Shown here in pieces: positions 26,727 to 32,595 of a DNA stretch of 64,000 nt. The translations under genes and the position numbers were made by a program. The notes below the pieces were generated by a model. It worked only from the letters and a program-made list of their open reading frames with translations, ran no database searches and had not been told where the DNA came from. Location: the NCBI RefSeq assembly GCF_013260645.1, contig NZ_CP053921.1, positions 62,001 through 126,000 of the forward strand. Direction: 5' to 3'. The stretch comes from Erythrobacter mangrovi (lineage in GTDB: Bacteria; Pseudomonadota; Alphaproteobacteria; Sphingomonadales; Sphingomonadaceae). Position 1 is the first letter of the stretch. Each line of letters opens with the position of its first letter.

Positions 26727-27647
26727 GTGAGCGAACAGAAAACCCCCGAGCAACTCGTCGCAGGCCTCGTCCGCCTGCTCACCCTCTCGCGCGAGGGCGA
26801 GGACGCCTTCACCGGCCGCAAGCAACCCGGCGGCGTCGGCCGCGTCTTCGGCGGCCAGGTCATCGCCCAGGCGCTGCAGGCCGCGCAGACGACCGCGCCC
26901 GAGGGGCTCGAGGCGCATTCGCTCCACGCCTATTTCCTGCGCGGCGGGACCGAGGGCATCGACATCGGCTACACCACCGCGCGCGATTTCGACGGACGCA
27001 GCTTCGCCAACCGCCGCGTGGTCGCCAGCCAGACCGAGGAAGACGGGACCACCCGCCCCATCCTCAACCTCACCGCCAGCTTCCAGCGGCCCGAGGAAGG
27101 CCTGTCGCACGACGACACCGAAATGCCCGACGTCACTCCGCCCGAGGAGCTGCAGAGCGACATGGACGTGCGCCGCGATATCGCCGAACGCGCGGGCGAG
27201 CGCATGGGCGAGGCACAGCGCGCGATCTTCCTGCGCCCGCGCCCGATCGACATGCGCACCGCGGGTCGGCTGCACTGGATGAACCGCGAGCCGAGCGAGC
27301 CCAAGGCGCATAGCTGGTTCCGCACCGTCGCCCCCCTGCCCGACGATCCGGCCCTGCACCGCGCGGTGATCGCCTATGCCAGCGACTTCACCCTGCTTGG
27401 CACCAGCGCGCTGCCGCATGGCCTCAGCTGGATGCGCGGCGAGCTGGTGGGCGCAAGCCTGGACCACGCGATCTGGTTCCACCGCCCGGCGCGCGCCGAC
27501 GAATGGCTGCTCTATGCCACCGACGCTCCGTGGAGCGGCAATGGCCGCGGCTTCAACCGCGGCCGCATCTTCAACCGCGCGGGCGAGCTGGTTGCGAGCG
27601 TGGCGCAGGAAGGGATGATGCGGAAGCGGGTAAAGAAGGACGGCTAG
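26727..27647 (+). CDS. tesB: Acyl-CoA thioesterase II
   Basis: 306 aa double-hotdog thioesterase. GGVGRVFGGQVIAQALQAAQ at the N-terminal hotdog, LHAYFLRGGT, and the C-terminal hotdog with YASDFTLLGTSAL and SLDHAIWFHRPARADEWLLY (catalytic Asp of the TesB Asp-Gln-Thr triad) are diagnostic. Hydrolyses medium- and long-chain acyl-CoA. Starts at GTG 26727. The codon choice is very GC rich, unlike the preceding and following genes. The stop codon at 27645-27647 abuts a tandem repeat. Confidence 0.95.
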   Translation: MSEQKTPEQLVAGLVRLLTLSREGEDAFTGRKQPGGVGRVFGGQVIAQALQAAQTTAPEGLEAHSLHAYFLRGGTEGIDIGYTTARDFDGRSFANRRVVASQTEEDGTTRPILNLTASFQRPEEGLSHDDTEMPDVTPPEELQSDMDVRRDIAERAGERMGEAQRAIFLRPRPIDMRTAGRLHWMNREPSEPKAHSWFRTVAPLPDDPALHRAVIAYASDFTLLGTSALPHGLSWMRGELVGASLDHAIWFHRPARADEWLLYATDAPWSGNGRGFNRGRIFNRAGELVASVAQEGMMRKRVKKDG

Positions 27648-27755
27648 TCCTCAAGCAGCGTAGCGATAGGACGGACAGGAACGTCCTCAAGCAGCGCAGC
27701 GATAGGACAGGCAGGAACGTCCCCAAGTAGCGTAGCGATAGGACGGACAAGAATC
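27648..27755. repeat. Three tandem 36-bp repeats
   Basis: Units at 27648-27683, 27684-27719 and 27720-27755. Unit 1 begins TCCTCAAGCAGCGTAGCGAT and ends AGGACGGACAGGAACG. Units 1 and 2 differ at 2 positions; unit 3 differs from unit 1 at about 4. Each contains a GTCCT/AGGAC short dyad at its junction, so the array can fold as RNA hairpins. No spacers are present, so it is not CRISPR. It starts one base after the tesB stop codon. Confidence 0.9.
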
Positions 27756-27999
27756 CCCTGATTCGTTAAGGCTACGGAATTCCTGCCTGAACGCAGTCTC
27801 GCGAATTTGCCTAAACTCACGCGAGTGAACGATAGAAGTCATCTTTCGCCCGCAAACTTGGCGACGATGTGCGCGGATCGACGGTGTGAAAGAGCCGATG
27901 TGAAGCTAACACCGGGTGGGAATGTAGGAAAACGCCGAACCCGCAGCCGAAACCAGAGATTCGCTTTGCAGCCAGCAGCTTACCGGGCATGGAAGGATC
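27756..27999. other. Gene-free leader upstream of the helicase
   Basis: With the tandem repeats it makes a 352-bp stretch without a convincing gene. It is less G+C rich than the flanks. An inverted repeat CTCGCG ... CGCGAG (around 27798-27825) is present. An 84-codon frame beginning at 27807 runs into the helicase gene in another phase and has no recognisable features, so it is not called. No confident promoter seen. Confidence 0.5.
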
Positions 28000-30672
28000 A
28001 TGCTCGAGGCGATGCATTTCAGCGGGACATGGCGCGACTATCAGCAACGCGTGCTCGATGAATTCGATCACCATCTGGCAGATGATCGTATCAACATCGT
28101 CGCCGCTCCCGGATCGGGCAAGACGGTACTCGGGCTGGAACTGGTTCGGCGGCTCGGTCGCCCGGCAATAGTGCTCGCTCCATCACTGACGATCCGTGAT
28201 CAGTGGGCCGCACGCCTTGTCCCTCTGTTCATGGCCAATCGGCCGGACGAGAGCTTCGTGTCATTCTCGCTCGAGGCCCCGGCCACAATTACCTGCGCGA
28301 CGTACCAGGCACTCCACGCGATCCACGCCGACAGCGGGAAGGACAGGATCGAGATCTTGCTTGCTTGGGCGAGAGCGAATGCTCCTGTCACGCTAGTGCT
28401 CGATGAAGCGCATCATTTGCGACAGGAATGGTGGCGTGCACTTGACATGTTGATTGAAGAGCTGGGCGACGCAAAGGTCGTCTCGCTTACCGCTACCCCG
28501 CCGTATGATGCTCCGCTTGCAGAATGGCGGCGTTTCGAAAGTGCATGCGGACCGATCGATCTTGAGATCGGTATCCCGGAACTAGTCCGAAACGGTGACC
28601 TCTGCCCGCATCAGGATCACGTCGTCCTGTCGAGACCCAGCGACGACCTGCTGGCCTTGCTCGATGCACGCCGCGAAGCGGTCTCCGATATCGTGCAAAT
28701 GATCAGGGCTGATGCCACGCTTGCCGATGGCATAGAAAACCACCCGTGGTTGCTCCGACCGCTCGATCACCTCGAGCCGATTCTCGATAACCCGACGATC
28801 CTTTCCTCGATGCTCGTCCATCTCCACGCCATCGGACGCGAGTTGCCGAAGGATGCGCTGCGTCTGCTTGGTGTCGACGTAAAATCGGTACCCATGCAGA
28901 CAGCGCGTTGGTTCGAAGCCCTGCTCAATGCGCTGTTGTACGATTTGGGCGAAACGTCTCCTCTCGACGTCGGGGCCCGCAGAGTATTGATCAACCGGCT
29001 GCATCGAAGCGGGTTGATCGAAGGCGATCGGGTCAAGCTTGGTGAGACCAAGCGGATCGTAAGGATGATGGCGGGCGATCGTGTAAAGTTGACCAGCATA
29101 GCGGTCATTGCCGAAGCCGAGGCTCGACAATGTCGTAACGAACTGCGGATGCTGGTGCTGGCCGACCATGTGCGCGGTGCCGACCTGCCCAACAGACCAT
29201 CGGCCAAGTTTGAGCCCGCCAAGATCGGCGTAGCCACAATCTTCGAAACCTTGCGACGCAAAGATCTGCCGGGGCAGAGCATTGGGGTTCTGACCGGGAC
29301 ACTCGTTATTCTTCCCGTCCGAGCTAGCGATGCATTGACTAATCTGGGTGCGGATCGTGGCATCCCGAGGGATGAGCTGAACACTCGCGCACTCCCCCAT
29401 TGCATTACGCATCGGATCGTGACCGCCAGTGGCAATGGCAAGAGAGCGCTGGTCGGACTGGTGACGGAGCTGTTTCAGCGAGGAGATATTACCGTCCTCG
29501 TCGGCACCCAGGCGCTATTGGGAGAAGGCTGGGATGCACCTGCGATCAACAGCTTGGTTCTTGCTAGCAATTCGGCGAGCTATATGCTGTCCAACCAGAT
29601 GCGCGGGCGGGCCATTCGCATCGACCCGCATCGACCAGGCAAGGTCTCCAACATCTGGCATCTGGCGACTCTCACTGACCCTTCAGCGATCGGGTCGATG
29701 GGCAGGCTTGTCGAGAATCTCGAATGGGGCGGTATTGCCGATGGGGCCGCGGTCACCGCCGACATCAAACTGCTGGAACGCCGGTTTGATGCCTACGCAG
29801 GAATCTCCAACGATGGCACAATGCGAATAGGGACGGGTTTGGCTCGCTTGGCACTGGCGGATCACGAAACGCTTCAGGCAGCCAATGCGGCGACCTTCGC
29901 TCGCGCAGCCGATCGCGCGGGTATCGCGCGCGATTGGGCTACTTCGCTTGGCGATGCTCCTTCGCGTGCGCATGTCCGCGAAGTCGCCGCGCCACGGCAC
30001 ACACCACGGCGCCTCGTATGGCGCAATACCATCAACTCAGTCGTAACCTCCGGATTGGCCAGCGGGGCGATGGCTGGTTCCTACGGACTCTTGAATTCTC
30101 TCGGAACCAAGCCCTTCCTCGTACTGCTGACAGGAGTAGCTACTACCGCAACGATCGCAACGCTCCCTAGGCTTGCCAGGGCGTTGTACCTGGCCCTGCG
30201 CAACGGCAGCCTCGAAAATAGTCTGCGTCAGGTGGGCGAGATGGTACTAGTCGGCTTGCGCAACGCCGGGTTCCTTGATCACCAGGAATACAGCGACGCC
30301 CAGGTCCTTGTGGCGGCTGGGCTGGATGGAAGCCGTACACTCTGTTTCGATGGCCTAAGCCGCAACGCCGACATCCTGGCGATGGATGCGGTGGTCGAGC
30401 TTCTTGGGCCAATCCAGAACCCACGATACTTGCTGGTACGGAAGGGTGGTCTCATCCGGGACGGCAAGGACTATCATGCCATCCCCGCAGTATTCTCCAA
30501 GAACAAAGCAGCGGCCGAGAGTTTTGCCCGCGAATGGTCGGCTCGGGTGGGGCCTTGCAAGGCTTTGGCAACTCGCAGTGAAGAAGGACGTCAAGCTCTG
30601 CTCCTGGCGCGGCGTGCCTCGCTTGCGGCTGGGATGCAAAGAGCGGTTGAGCGTCGCTCGGACTGGCGCTGA
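28000..30672 (+). CDS. SF2 DEAH-type helicase with hydrophobic segment and unknown C-terminal domain
   Basis: 890 aa. The SF2 motor is complete: Walker A APGSGKT (36-42), DEAH (135-138), SLTATPP (162-168), then after a long insert VLVGTQALLGEGWDAP (about 498-513) and QMRGRAIRID (about 533-542). Residues about 680-735 hold two hydrophobic stretches (GLASGAMAGSYGLL and LVLLTGVATTATIA), unusual for a helicase and likely a membrane hairpin. The last 130 residues form a separate domain with NPRYLLVRKGGLI, DYHAIPAVFSKNKAAAESF and EGRQALLLARRASL. I cannot name this domain. ATG 28000 (GGAAGG nearby) or ATG 28012 could be the start. Codon usage is less GC rich than neighbours and tandem repeats precede it, suggesting acquisition. 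A defence role is possible but is inference. Confidence 0.85.
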   Translation: MLEAMHFSGTWRDYQQRVLDEFDHHLADDRINIVAAPGSGKTVLGLELVRRLGRPAIVLAPSLTIRDQWAARLVPLFMANRPDESFVSFSLEAPATITCATYQALHAIHADSGKDRIEILLAWARANAPVTLVLDEAHHLRQEWWRALDMLIEELGDAKVVSLTATPPYDAPLAEWRRFESACGPIDLEIGIPELVRNGDLCPHQDHVVLSRPSDDLLALLDARREAVSDIVQMIRADATLADGIENHPWLLRPLDHLEPILDNPTILSSMLVHLHAIGRELPKDALRLLGVDVKSVPMQTARWFEALLNALLYDLGETSPLDVGARRVLINRLHRSGLIEGDRVKLGETKRIVRMMAGDRVKLTSIAVIAEAEARQCRNELRMLVLADHVRGADLPNRPSAKFEPAKIGVATIFETLRRKDLPGQSIGVLTGTLVILPVRASDALTNLGADRGIPRDELNTRALPHCITHRIVTASGNGKRALVGLVTELFQRGDITVLVGTQALLGEGWDAPAINSLVLASNSASYMLSNQMRGRAIRIDPHRPGKVSNIWHLATLTDPSAIGSMGRLVENLEWGGIADGAAVTADIKLLERRFDAYAGISNDGTMRIGTGLARLALADHETLQAANAATFARAADRAGIARDWATSLGDAPSRAHVREVAAPRHTPRRLVWRNTINSVVTSGLASGAMAGSYGLLNSLGTKPFLVLLTGVATTATIATLPRLARALYLALRNGSLENSLRQVGEMVLVGLRNAGFLDHQEYSDAQVLVAAGLDGSRTLCFDGLSRNADILAMDAVVELLGPIQNPRYLLVRKGGLIRDGKDYHAIPAVFSKNKAAAESFAREWSARVGPCKALATRSEEGRQALLLARRASLAAGMQRAVERRSDWR

Positions 30673-30798
30673 CCACAGGCCCCCTTCGCACCTGCAAAAA
30701 AGCGCAAGCCAAATCGTGCAAACTTCGCTATGGGGCCGCTCGACGAGCGCCTGCGCCGTGCCCCCTGCACCGCCGCGCCGCGATGAAAACGAGTATCC

Positions 30799-32595
30799 AT
30801 GTCCTTCGAATCCCTTCCGCCACTGCTCGGCGATGCATTGGCCGCTCGCGGCTATGAAACCCTCACCCCGGTCCAGGCCGCGGTCACCGATCCCGAGGTC
30901 GCCGGACGCGACCTGATCGTTTCCGCGCAGACCGGCAGCGGCAAGACCGTCGCCTTCGGCCTTGCCCTCGCCGACGAACTGCTCGGCGAACTGGGCGGCT
31001 CGCCGCTGTGCGAACAGCCACTGGCGCTGGTGATCGCCCCCACGCGCGAACTGGCGCTGCAGGTCAGCCGCGAGCTCGGCTGGCTCTTTGCCGGTGCGGG
31101 CCTGCGCATCGCCACCTGCGTCGGCGGCATGGATGCGAGCAAGGAACGCCGTGCGCTGCGCGGCGGACCGGCCATCGTGGTCGGCACGCCGGGGCGCCTG
31201 CGCGACCATATCGAACGCGGTGCGCTCGACCTCTCCGGCCTGATCGGCGTGGTGCTCGACGAAGCGGACGAGATGCTCGACATGGGCTTCCGCGAGGATC
31301 TCGAGGAAATCCTCGACGCGACGCCCGATGGCCGCCGCACGCTGCTGTTTTCCGCCACCATGCCGCCCGCCATCGTGCGATTGGCCGAACGCTACCAGCG
31401 CGATGCGCTGCGGCTGTCGCTGGCGGGCGAGACGCGCGGGCACGGCGATATCGCCTATCAGTGCGTCACCGTCGGCCCGTCGGAGATCGAGAACGCGGTG
31501 GTCAATCTGCTGCGCTTCCACGAGGCCGAGACGGCGATCTGTTTCTGCGCCACGCGCGACAGCGTCCGCCGGCTCCACGCGACATTGCAGAACCGCGGCT
31601 TCGGCGTGGTGGCGCTTTCGGGCGAGCATTCGCAGAGCGAGCGCAACCAGGCGTTGCAGGCGCTGCGTGACCGGCGCGCACGGGTTTGCGTGGCGACCGA
31701 TGTCGCCGCGCGCGGGATCGACCTGCCCAGCCTCAGCCTGGTGGTCCATGTCGAGATTCCGCGCGATGCCGAGACGCTGCAGCACCGTTCGGGTCGCACC
31801 GGGCGCGCGGGCAAGAAGGGCACCGCGGCGCTGATCGTTCCCTACAACCGCCGCAAGCGCATCGAGAGCATGCTGCGCGGCGCGCGGATCGAGGCGGAGT
31901 GGCTCGACGCGCCTTCGGCCGAAGCGATCCGCAAGCGCGACCGCACCCGCCTGATCGAGCGGATCACCGAGCCGCGCGAGTTCGACGAGGACGATCGCGA
32001 GCTGGCAGCCGAGCTGCTGAAGCGCATGCCGCCCGAAGATATCGCCGCGGCGCTGGTCCATTCGCACCGCGCCGAACTGCCGCAGCCCGAAGAACTGCTC
32101 GCCAACACCCCCGAGGCGCGCGAGCAGGCCAAGGCGGAACGCCACCGCCCCGGCTTCGAGGACGTGGTGTGGTTCAAGATCGGCGTGGGCCGCCGCCAGA
32201 GTGCCGAGCCGCGCTGGATCCTGCCACTGATCTGTCGCCGCGGGCACATCACCCGCAACGAGATCGGGGCGATCCGTATCGGCCAGCACGAAAGCTGGTT
32301 CCAGATCCCGCGCCCGGTCGCGGCCAAGTTCGCCGATGCCGTGGCGCGTACCGCCTCGCCCGAGGACGAGCAGGACGCGATCGCGATCGTCGAGGCGCCC
32401 GAAGGTCCGCGCGTCGAAGCGCGCGAGAACCGCAAGCACGGCGGCCCGCGCGTCTCCCCGCGTCCGCTCGGCGCCGGTCCGGGCAAGCGCCCCGGCCCCG
32501 GCGCTCCGTTCAAGGGCAAGCCCGGCGGCGGCAAGCCCTTCTCCGGCAAGCCCAAGCCGGGCTTCAAGGGCAAGGGGCGCAAACCGACGAAGTAA
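30799..32595 (+). CDS. DEAD-box RNA helicase with C-terminal RNA-binding domain
   Basis: 598 aa. Q-motif region TLTPVQAAV, motif I AQTGSGKT, Ia APTRELALQ, GTPGRL, motif II DEAD in VVLDEADEMLDMGF, SAT in LLFSATMP, motif V ATDVAARGIDLP and motif VI HRSGRTGRAGKKG are all present. After the core, a DbpA/CsdA-like RNA-binding domain (WFKIGVGRRQSAEPRWILPL) and a Gly/Lys/Pro-rich tail (KGKPGGGKPFSGKPKPG) follow. Likely acts in ribosome assembly or cold-stress RNA remodelling. Strongly GC-biased codons, unlike the helicase gene just upstream. Confidence 0.94.
   Translation: MSFESLPPLLGDALAARGYETLTPVQAAVTDPEVAGRDLIVSAQTGSGKTVAFGLALADELLGELGGSPLCEQPLALVIAPTRELALQVSRELGWLFAGAGLRIATCVGGMDASKERRALRGGPAIVVGTPGRLRDHIERGALDLSGLIGVVLDEADEMLDMGFREDLEEILDATPDGRRTLLFSATMPPAIVRLAERYQRDALRLSLAGETRGHGDIAYQCVTVGPSEIENAVVNLLRFHEAETAICFCATRDSVRRLHATLQNRGFGVVALSGEHSQSERNQALQALRDRRARVCVATDVAARGIDLPSLSLVVHVEIPRDAETLQHRSGRTGRAGKKGTAALIVPYNRRKRIESMLRGARIEAEWLDAPSAEAIRKRDRTRLIERITEPREFDEDDRELAAELLKRMPPEDIAAALVHSHRAELPQPEELLANTPEAREQAKAERHRPGFEDVVWFKIGVGRRQSAEPRWILPLICRRGHITRNEIGAIRIGQHESWFQIPRPVAAKFADAVARTASPEDEQDAIAIVEAPEGPRVEARENRKHGGPRVSPRPLGAGPGKRPGPGAPFKGKPGGGKPFSGKPKPGFKGKGRKPTK

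Follow-up and report, generated by a model that had tools for sequence, protein, structure and literature searches.

A single-gene superfamily 2 motor with a hydrophobic hairpin, probably a membrane anchor, and a C-terminal domain of its own in Erythrobacter mangrovi

Domain architecture of the predicted protein

The stretch of the Erythrobacter mangrovi genome analysed here (NZ_CP053921.1, positions 62,001 to 126,000; 64,000 nucleotides, referred to below as the window and numbered from its first letter) contains at 28000..30672, on the forward strand, a single open reading frame (ORF) of 890 codons with an ATG start, which encodes a superfamily 2 (SF2) motor followed by a hydrophobic helical hairpin and a C-terminal domain. 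The gene is single-copy in its 3.06 Mb one-contig genome. Eleven relatives align to the product across nearly its full length, and the start position is equal or within a residue or two in 8 of the 11 relatives aligned first. The gene and its parts are as follows.

28000..30672, forward strand: whole gene, SF2 motor, hydrophobic hairpin and C-terminal domain, 890 aa (ORF, Pfam, alignment, model)
28000..28611, forward strand: RecA-like domain 1, residues 1–204, with Walker A APGSGKT, DEAHHL and LTATPPYD (ResIII match at residues 10–168, invariant columns, model; boundary approximate)
28612..29139, forward strand: insertion between the RecA domains, mainly helical, residues about 205–380 (secondary structure of the model; boundary approximate)
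29140..29679, forward strand: RecA-like domain 2, residues about 381–560, with GTQALLGEGWDAP and QMRGRAIR (invariant columns, model, sub-cut-off Helicase_C)
30010..30204, forward strand: hydrophobic helical hairpin (residues 671–698 and 704–735), probable membrane anchor (hydropathy, model)
30211..30669, forward strand: C-terminal alpha/beta domain, residues 738–890 (model, alignment)

A scan of species genomes returned at least 343 relatives, the best 80 of which were kept for the locus and alignment work; in 78 of these the frame stays open for 820 codons or more, and 76 of the 78 make up, together with the window protein, the 77-row alignment used below (L031 and L073 were excluded by a length or N filter; L091 and L094 passed it and were omitted from the alignment). 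Pfam identified ResIII with 60.8 bits against a cut-off of 22.5, and Helicase_C matched residues 488–541 under its cut-off. The columns P37, G38, G40, K41, T42, D135, E136, H138 and T164–P168 of the first RecA-like domain, as well as G502, G508, G510–D512, Q533, R535, G536, R537 and R540 of the second, are invariant in all 77 rows. The window protein is thus an SF2 helicase or translocase, whose two RecA-like domains contain Walker A, DEAx and motifs III, V and VI: the complete SF2 motor described in an earlier note, made from the sequence alone, stands, and the motor motifs quoted there fall in invariant columns. The AlphaFold2 model of the protein has a mean predicted local distance difference test score (pLDDT) of 88.7 and a predicted template modelling score of 0.88.

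In this model the motor is followed by two long helices (residues 671–698 and 704–735) and then by the alpha/beta domain. Across the alignment the Kyte-Doolittle (KD) hydropathy over 19 residues peaks at 1.6 or above in 68 of the 77 rows, with two such peaks in 42, and reaches values of up to 3.3; on a simplified insertion-energy scale, with approximate values, the hairpin is the most hydrophobic stretch of the protein in 72 of the 77. Its sequence is poorly conserved, with hydrophobicity retained. Both flanks are basic and the loop is less so, the pattern to be expected if both ends of the hairpin lie inside. On these predictions the family is likely to be tethered to the membrane; this is less certain for the window protein, and the tether is not universal.

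The C-terminal domain accompanies the motor in every case looked at. Its conserved residues are E800, N807-P-R-Y810, P829, K836, T858-R859, G863-R864 and R871; NPRY, TR and GR are strongly conserved, and of the DYHAIP singled out by the earlier note mainly Y and P are. The separate domain postulated there is predicted as alpha/beta after the hairpin. Searches of the C-terminal part against Pfam, PADLOC, NCBIfam and PHROGs gave zero matches, the domain could be assigned to no known fold, and no nuclease signature was seen in it. Judged by sequence and model, the motor motifs are intact and the fold is XPB-like; what is conserved in the hairpin is its hydrophobic character, not its sequence, and the C-terminal domain is linked to the motor. 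The architecture that caught the earlier reader's attention is real and unusual; taken by itself, the union of motor, hairpin and own C-terminal domain in one gene is quite probable. It is a layout of a known motor superfamily covered by no model in the libraries searched here. No PADLOC model spans most of the protein, the best being PbeA (28.3 bits, best stretch residues 10–145).

Relationship to known SF2 proteins and membrane-bound motors

Nucleic-acid SF2 motors are normally soluble. The best profile and fold kin of the window motor is XPB/RAD25 (archaeal XPB, TFIIH subunit), a dsDNA translocase that likewise has an SF2 motor with two RecA domains; XPB is characterised by the RED motif, the thumb and the damage-recognition domain. 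However, the window protein scores only 34 bits against the NCBIfam XPB model (NF045503, cut-off 610) and, unlike XPB, has a helical insert, a hydrophobic hairpin and a C-terminal domain of its own. By eye, the letters RED are absent from residues 150–230; no structural alignment of the RED, thumb or damage-recognition parts was made. Against the RadD model the score is 11.6 bits (NF053632, cut-off 720). The SF2 motors of the Hef/FANCM and RIG-I types, which also carry an insertion between the RecA domains, are among the top Foldseek matches, but the window protein has no match to a nuclease or CARD family in Pfam and does have the hydrophobic hairpin.

PbeA and the motor subunits of type I and III restriction enzymes share the SF2 motor and match pieces of it weakly (the EcoAI-type HsdR model gives 13.2 bits, cut-off 550); in contrast to the restriction motors, the window protein shows no nuclease family match in Pfam or NCBIfam and no recurrent methylase neighbour in the 80 loci. 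FtsK/SpoIIIE is a membrane-anchored dsDNA translocase, comparable only in the way it works, and belongs to a different motor superfamily: among Pfam matches up to E 1, the FtsK-HerA type ATPase domain is absent from the window protein, while ResIII and DEAD match. In the defence system Zorya, too, membrane proteins and an SF2 motor work as a unit; the present case differs from it in consisting of one gene, with no recurrent neighbour outside close relatives. Searches of the literature within reach, which excluded bioRxiv and most subscription papers, listed no description of a membrane-bound bacterial SF2 protein of like kind.

Distribution and inheritance of the family

The rows of the alignment come from Pseudomonadota, Bacteroidota, Bacillota, Melainabacteria, Armatimonadota, Calditrichota, Thermodesulfobacteriota, Planctomycetota, Omnitrophota and Thorarchaeota, and the nearest named relatives are Erythrobacteraceae. 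Retention is low: the full-length gene is present in 4 of 60 congeners including the genome of the window (a fifth match is a 41-residue remnant), any match was obtained in 13 of 298 genomes of the window's taxonomic family (full length in 5 of them), and 4 of 398 genomes of the phylum sample are positive, again counting our own. The frequency is 25 of 199 in the family of Aequorivita and 10 of 151 in that of Pedobacter (the family names for the groups reached via G353 and G354 are inferred). At the thresholds used, there is one copy per positive genome. Three weak matches from the scan of the window's taxonomic family (G066, G317, G259) look like chance kin, one of which reads as UvrB by eye. 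Four plasmid records contain a relative. From phage and viral collections there are two unverified faecal scaffolds; one scan gave no confirmed relative and another a single 43-residue match.

The 77-member tree requires 10 changes of phylum label, compared to a minimum of 9 and a mean of 34.7 after shuffling, which suggests an old family with mostly vertical descent between phyla. Of the 25 positive genomes in the Aequorivita family, 20 had the region around the gene fetched, and in 15 of these Flavobacteriaceae regions the gene sits between hemB and hemF. Comparison of the helicase tree with that of hemB+hemF in 22 genomes (L141 was left out of 23 rows) revealed 7 of 19 splits in common, against 0.23 by chance, and 12 not in common; the distances are correlated (Mantel r 0.65; none of 5000 permutations as high), with the helicase distance about three times that of hemB+hemF (median ratio 3.1). 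Among 20 genomes lacking the helicase, hemF was found in 19; the hemB-hemF gap is 14–117 bp in 12 of these and 408–1372 bp with small genes in the other 7, and inspection by eye of the 19 noticed no defence cassette there.

The five Erythrobacteraceae copies, from three genera, are 87–91% identical at the DNA level, and pairs of them compared over 17–20 kb mostly have little in common beyond the gene itself. The exception is Croceibacterium salegens (G288) and G306, from two genera other than the window's, in which about 7 kb surrounding the gene is common to both, including a MobA/MobL relaxase region; in the former an integrase adjoins the gene. The family is old, widespread and patchily retained.

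Genomic neighborhood and signs of acquisition

The gene lies between two others of the same orientation, and the site is made up as follows.

26727..27647, forward strand: acyl-CoA thioesterase of the tesB type, left neighbour (Pfam Acyl_CoA_thio)
27797..27933, no strand: older intergenic sequence, left flank of the variable segment, shared with congeners G024 and G025
27934..30677, no strand: variable segment holding the helicase (left homology ends at about 27931–27933, right restarts at about 30678–30681)
30799..32595, forward strand: DEAD-box helicase with DbpA RNA-binding domain, right neighbour, outside the finding (Pfam DEAD, Helicase_C, DbpA)

The left flank is 82% identical to G024 over 137 bp, and its last part 94% identical to G025 over 53 bp. 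In the closest congener by tesB (G030, 91%), only 131 bp separate tesB from the DEAD-box gene, and similarity to the window stops at the tesB stop and resumes just past the helicase stop; in G009 the two genes are 185 bp apart. Apart from the window's own genome, 57 congeners gave a tesB match, and we examined this junction in 20 of them. The helicase is at the junction in none of the 20, and the DEAD-box gene is inside the fetched stretch in 9; five of these 9 (L206, L208, L209, L211, L212) carry, by eye, a phytase-like gene, accompanied by a TonB-receptor-like gene where one was called, and another of the 9 has an alpha/beta hydrolase. The G025 junction (L221) holds between the same flanks a GIY-YIG gene, an EcoRI-family adenine methylase (PF13651, 1.7e-128) and a DUF262 gene (the first and last labels being taken from the annotation of kin), and its right flank matches what lies just past the helicase in the window. 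The nearly empty site in the closest congener and the other cargo at the same junction elsewhere support a recent placement of the gene, in keeping with the acquisition considered by the earlier note. In a genome of another genus (G075) the helicase also follows tesB, with a different right flank, so that loss as well as gain is possible.

The two signs of acquisition put forward in that note fare less well. Codon use is moderately unusual, with a G+C content at third positions (GC3) of 0.66. Eighteen ORFs follow the order GC3>GC1>GC2, which the helicase itself does not, and 15 of the 18 have a GC3 of 0.72–0.90. By Karlin distance the gene ranks 11th among 30 ORFs of at least 250 codons (not all of them real genes), and the adjacent tesB deviates more. 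The tandem repeat at 27647–27753 is real and consists of three copies of a 36-bp hairpin element (RNA fold z -3.1), perhaps a terminator-like or repetitive extragenic palindromic (REP)-like element. It occurs at two further single places in the genome (with up to 3 mismatches), and one copy follows tesB in two congeners without the helicase there (L220, L207); it is dispersed and present without the helicase, and we therefore rejected it as a mark of acquisition.

For the wider survey of neighbours, genes were called by a longest-ORF rule (100–1200 aa), and proteins within two genes of a family member (140 and 138 in two sets) were compared with those six or seven genes away (138 of 218 scanned). 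PADLOC matched 25 families among the 140 near proteins and 5 among the 138, with one or two proteins per family, and 21 families among the 138 distal proteins, with up to four members each; several of the matched families are generic motors or methylases. Hence there is no PADLOC enrichment beside the gene among 278 near versus 138 distal proteins. Two near proteins match PADLOC PDC-S27 strongly (best 9.6e-196), and a scan of 10 candidates did not locate them. The 44 Erythrobacteraceae neighbours include one clear type IIG enzyme, MmeI-like and 675 bp from the helicase in G029 (L105). The same-strand immediate neighbours in the 80 loci (22 upstream, 13 downstream) show no kind that recurs outside close relatives; they are of differing kinds by eye, and an operon or toxin-antitoxin partner was rejected. 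A response-regulator gene adjoins in three closely related genomes and, by eye, perhaps one other, and housekeeping-looking neighbours such as rpsP, tig and tsf were also seen by eye.

Accordingly, the support for the defence association suggested by the earlier note is mixed and partial: the patchy presence, the fast evolution, the G025 cassette, the type IIG enzyme of G029 and the relaxase block of G288 and G306 speak for it, whereas the lack of PADLOC enrichment, the phylum-following tree and the hemB-hemF residence do not. The genome-context survey asked for there gave a housekeeping setting in Flavobacteriaceae, but mobile or restriction-type contexts in Erythrobacteraceae; the note's first refuting observation, homologues consistently in housekeeping contexts, is thus half borne out.

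Possible functions

We propose, as a tentative reading that falls just short of an even call, that the gene encodes, on its own, an accessory dsDNA translocase, probably tethered to the membrane, for dealing with DNA that is foreign or damaged. The hairpin would cross the inner membrane twice with both ends in the cytoplasm, and the motor and the C-terminal domain would thereby cooperate on membrane-proximal DNA. By moving along the duplex at the expense of ATP, the motor may remodel or clear DNA there, while the C-terminal domain, with its conserved basic and aromatic residues, would recognise DNA or a partner rather than cut. The most likely use would be on foreign or damaged DNA that meets the membrane, be it in entry, exclusion or rescue, and such a role would explain the dispensability of the gene, its fast evolution and the site it shares with the restriction-type cassette of a congener. 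The main task may be either immunity or repair.

Several observations weigh against this proposal. The window copy's own KD peak is only 1.54, borderline and Gly/Ala-rich, so that hydropathy and structure prediction support the membrane-linked motor of the earlier note for the family as a whole, but weakly in this copy. The copies on large plasmids of Tritonibacter (L020) and Rhodovulum (L019) keep the motor and the C-terminal domain without the hydrophobic hairpin (highest KD in the hairpin-containing half 1.14 and 1.07, respectively; the Rhodovulum copy is annotated as two genes), and the membrane is thus not essential for every member. DNA rather than RNA as the substrate is suggested by fold kinship, and the fold matches include the motors of RIG-I and Dicer as well. 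Among PHROGs, a phage DNA helicase family matches best (residues 12–209 only, 1.2e-28). The cassette swap in G025 is the strongest single argument for a defence-like role, but it comes from one genome; the genes at the junction in the five phytase-type congeners do not look like defence, and one other congener has an alpha/beta hydrolase there.

A narrower possibility, which we regard as rather unlikely, is a dedicated one-gene anti-phage or anti-plasmid system, in which the motor, bound to the membrane, would sense invading DNA or strip it, with the C-terminal domain acting as trigger or block. The restriction-modification-type cassette at the same site in G025, the closeness to the type IIG enzyme in G029, the relaxase block in G288 (with the integrase) and G306, the fast evolution relative to hemB+hemF and the Erythrobacteraceae copies at 87–91% DNA identity, most without common flanks, would all agree with it; yet PADLOC matches are no commoner beside the gene than at a distance, the tree follows phyla, and the gene has long resided between hemB and hemF, where genomes lacking it show no rotating defence cargo. 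The scarcity of phage and viral relatives also counts against it, though it is neutral for a host defence gene. The phylum-congruent tree, the hemB-hemF position with its shared splits and correlated distances, neighbours such as rpsP, tig and tsf, and the kinship of the motor to XPB, Hef/FANCM and RadD are in line with a non-essential housekeeping role in repairing DNA or processing the chromosome at the membrane, which most lineages have lost and some have retained. This explanation is unlikely as well, given the majority of splits not shared with hemB+hemF, the very low retention in the phylum, the transfer and mobile contexts in Erythrobacteraceae, and the lack of a recurrent repair partner among the neighbours in the 80 loci.

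Or perhaps the hairpin is no membrane anchor, but a long antiparallel helix pair for dimerisation or bracing of the motor? The low hydrophobicity of the window copy, a pLDDT of only 72–88 over residues 651–740 and the natural members without the hairpin would be compatible with this; however, the stretch is the most hydrophobic of the protein in nearly all members, at up to KD 3.3, and is as little conserved in sequence as expected of membrane helices; we regard this alternative as improbable. Finally, the ResIII match could indicate that the protein simply belongs to a known restriction or XPB repair family and that its hydrophobic stretch arose by chance, but the curated models for XPB, RadD and EcoAI-type HsdR fail by far and the architecture is conserved across phyla; we consider this very improbable.

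Returning to the accessory translocase, a single-gene, probably membrane-tethered SF2 motor in several bacterial phyla and Asgard archaea would offer a new place to study DNA handling at the membrane. In a bolder form, to which we give a minor chance, this class of membrane-tethered XPB-like dsDNA translocases would act as a one-gene gatekeeper against DNA entering via the membrane. If so, it would be an SF2 counterpart of FtsK-like pumps in immune use, from Bacteroidota to Asgard archaea, and a class overlooked since it is mostly outside defence islands. The copies examined indeed lie mostly outside such islands, so guilt-by-association screens would miss the gene if it is a defence gene.

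Truncated copies

Four genomes of four genera (G020, G188, G063 and G232; loci L005, L012, L013 and L014) share a stretch of 1.07–1.7 kb at 95.6–99.8% identity, near the edge of which lie the first 41 codons of the gene, followed by unrelated sequence; the stretch may be a mobile block of genes by which the helicase gene was at one time captured or cut. Two further loci contain an internal fragment of 126 residues (L010, G156) and a C-terminal fragment of 102 residues (L011, G124) in frames that are otherwise unrelated, and these are probably decayed copies of the gene.
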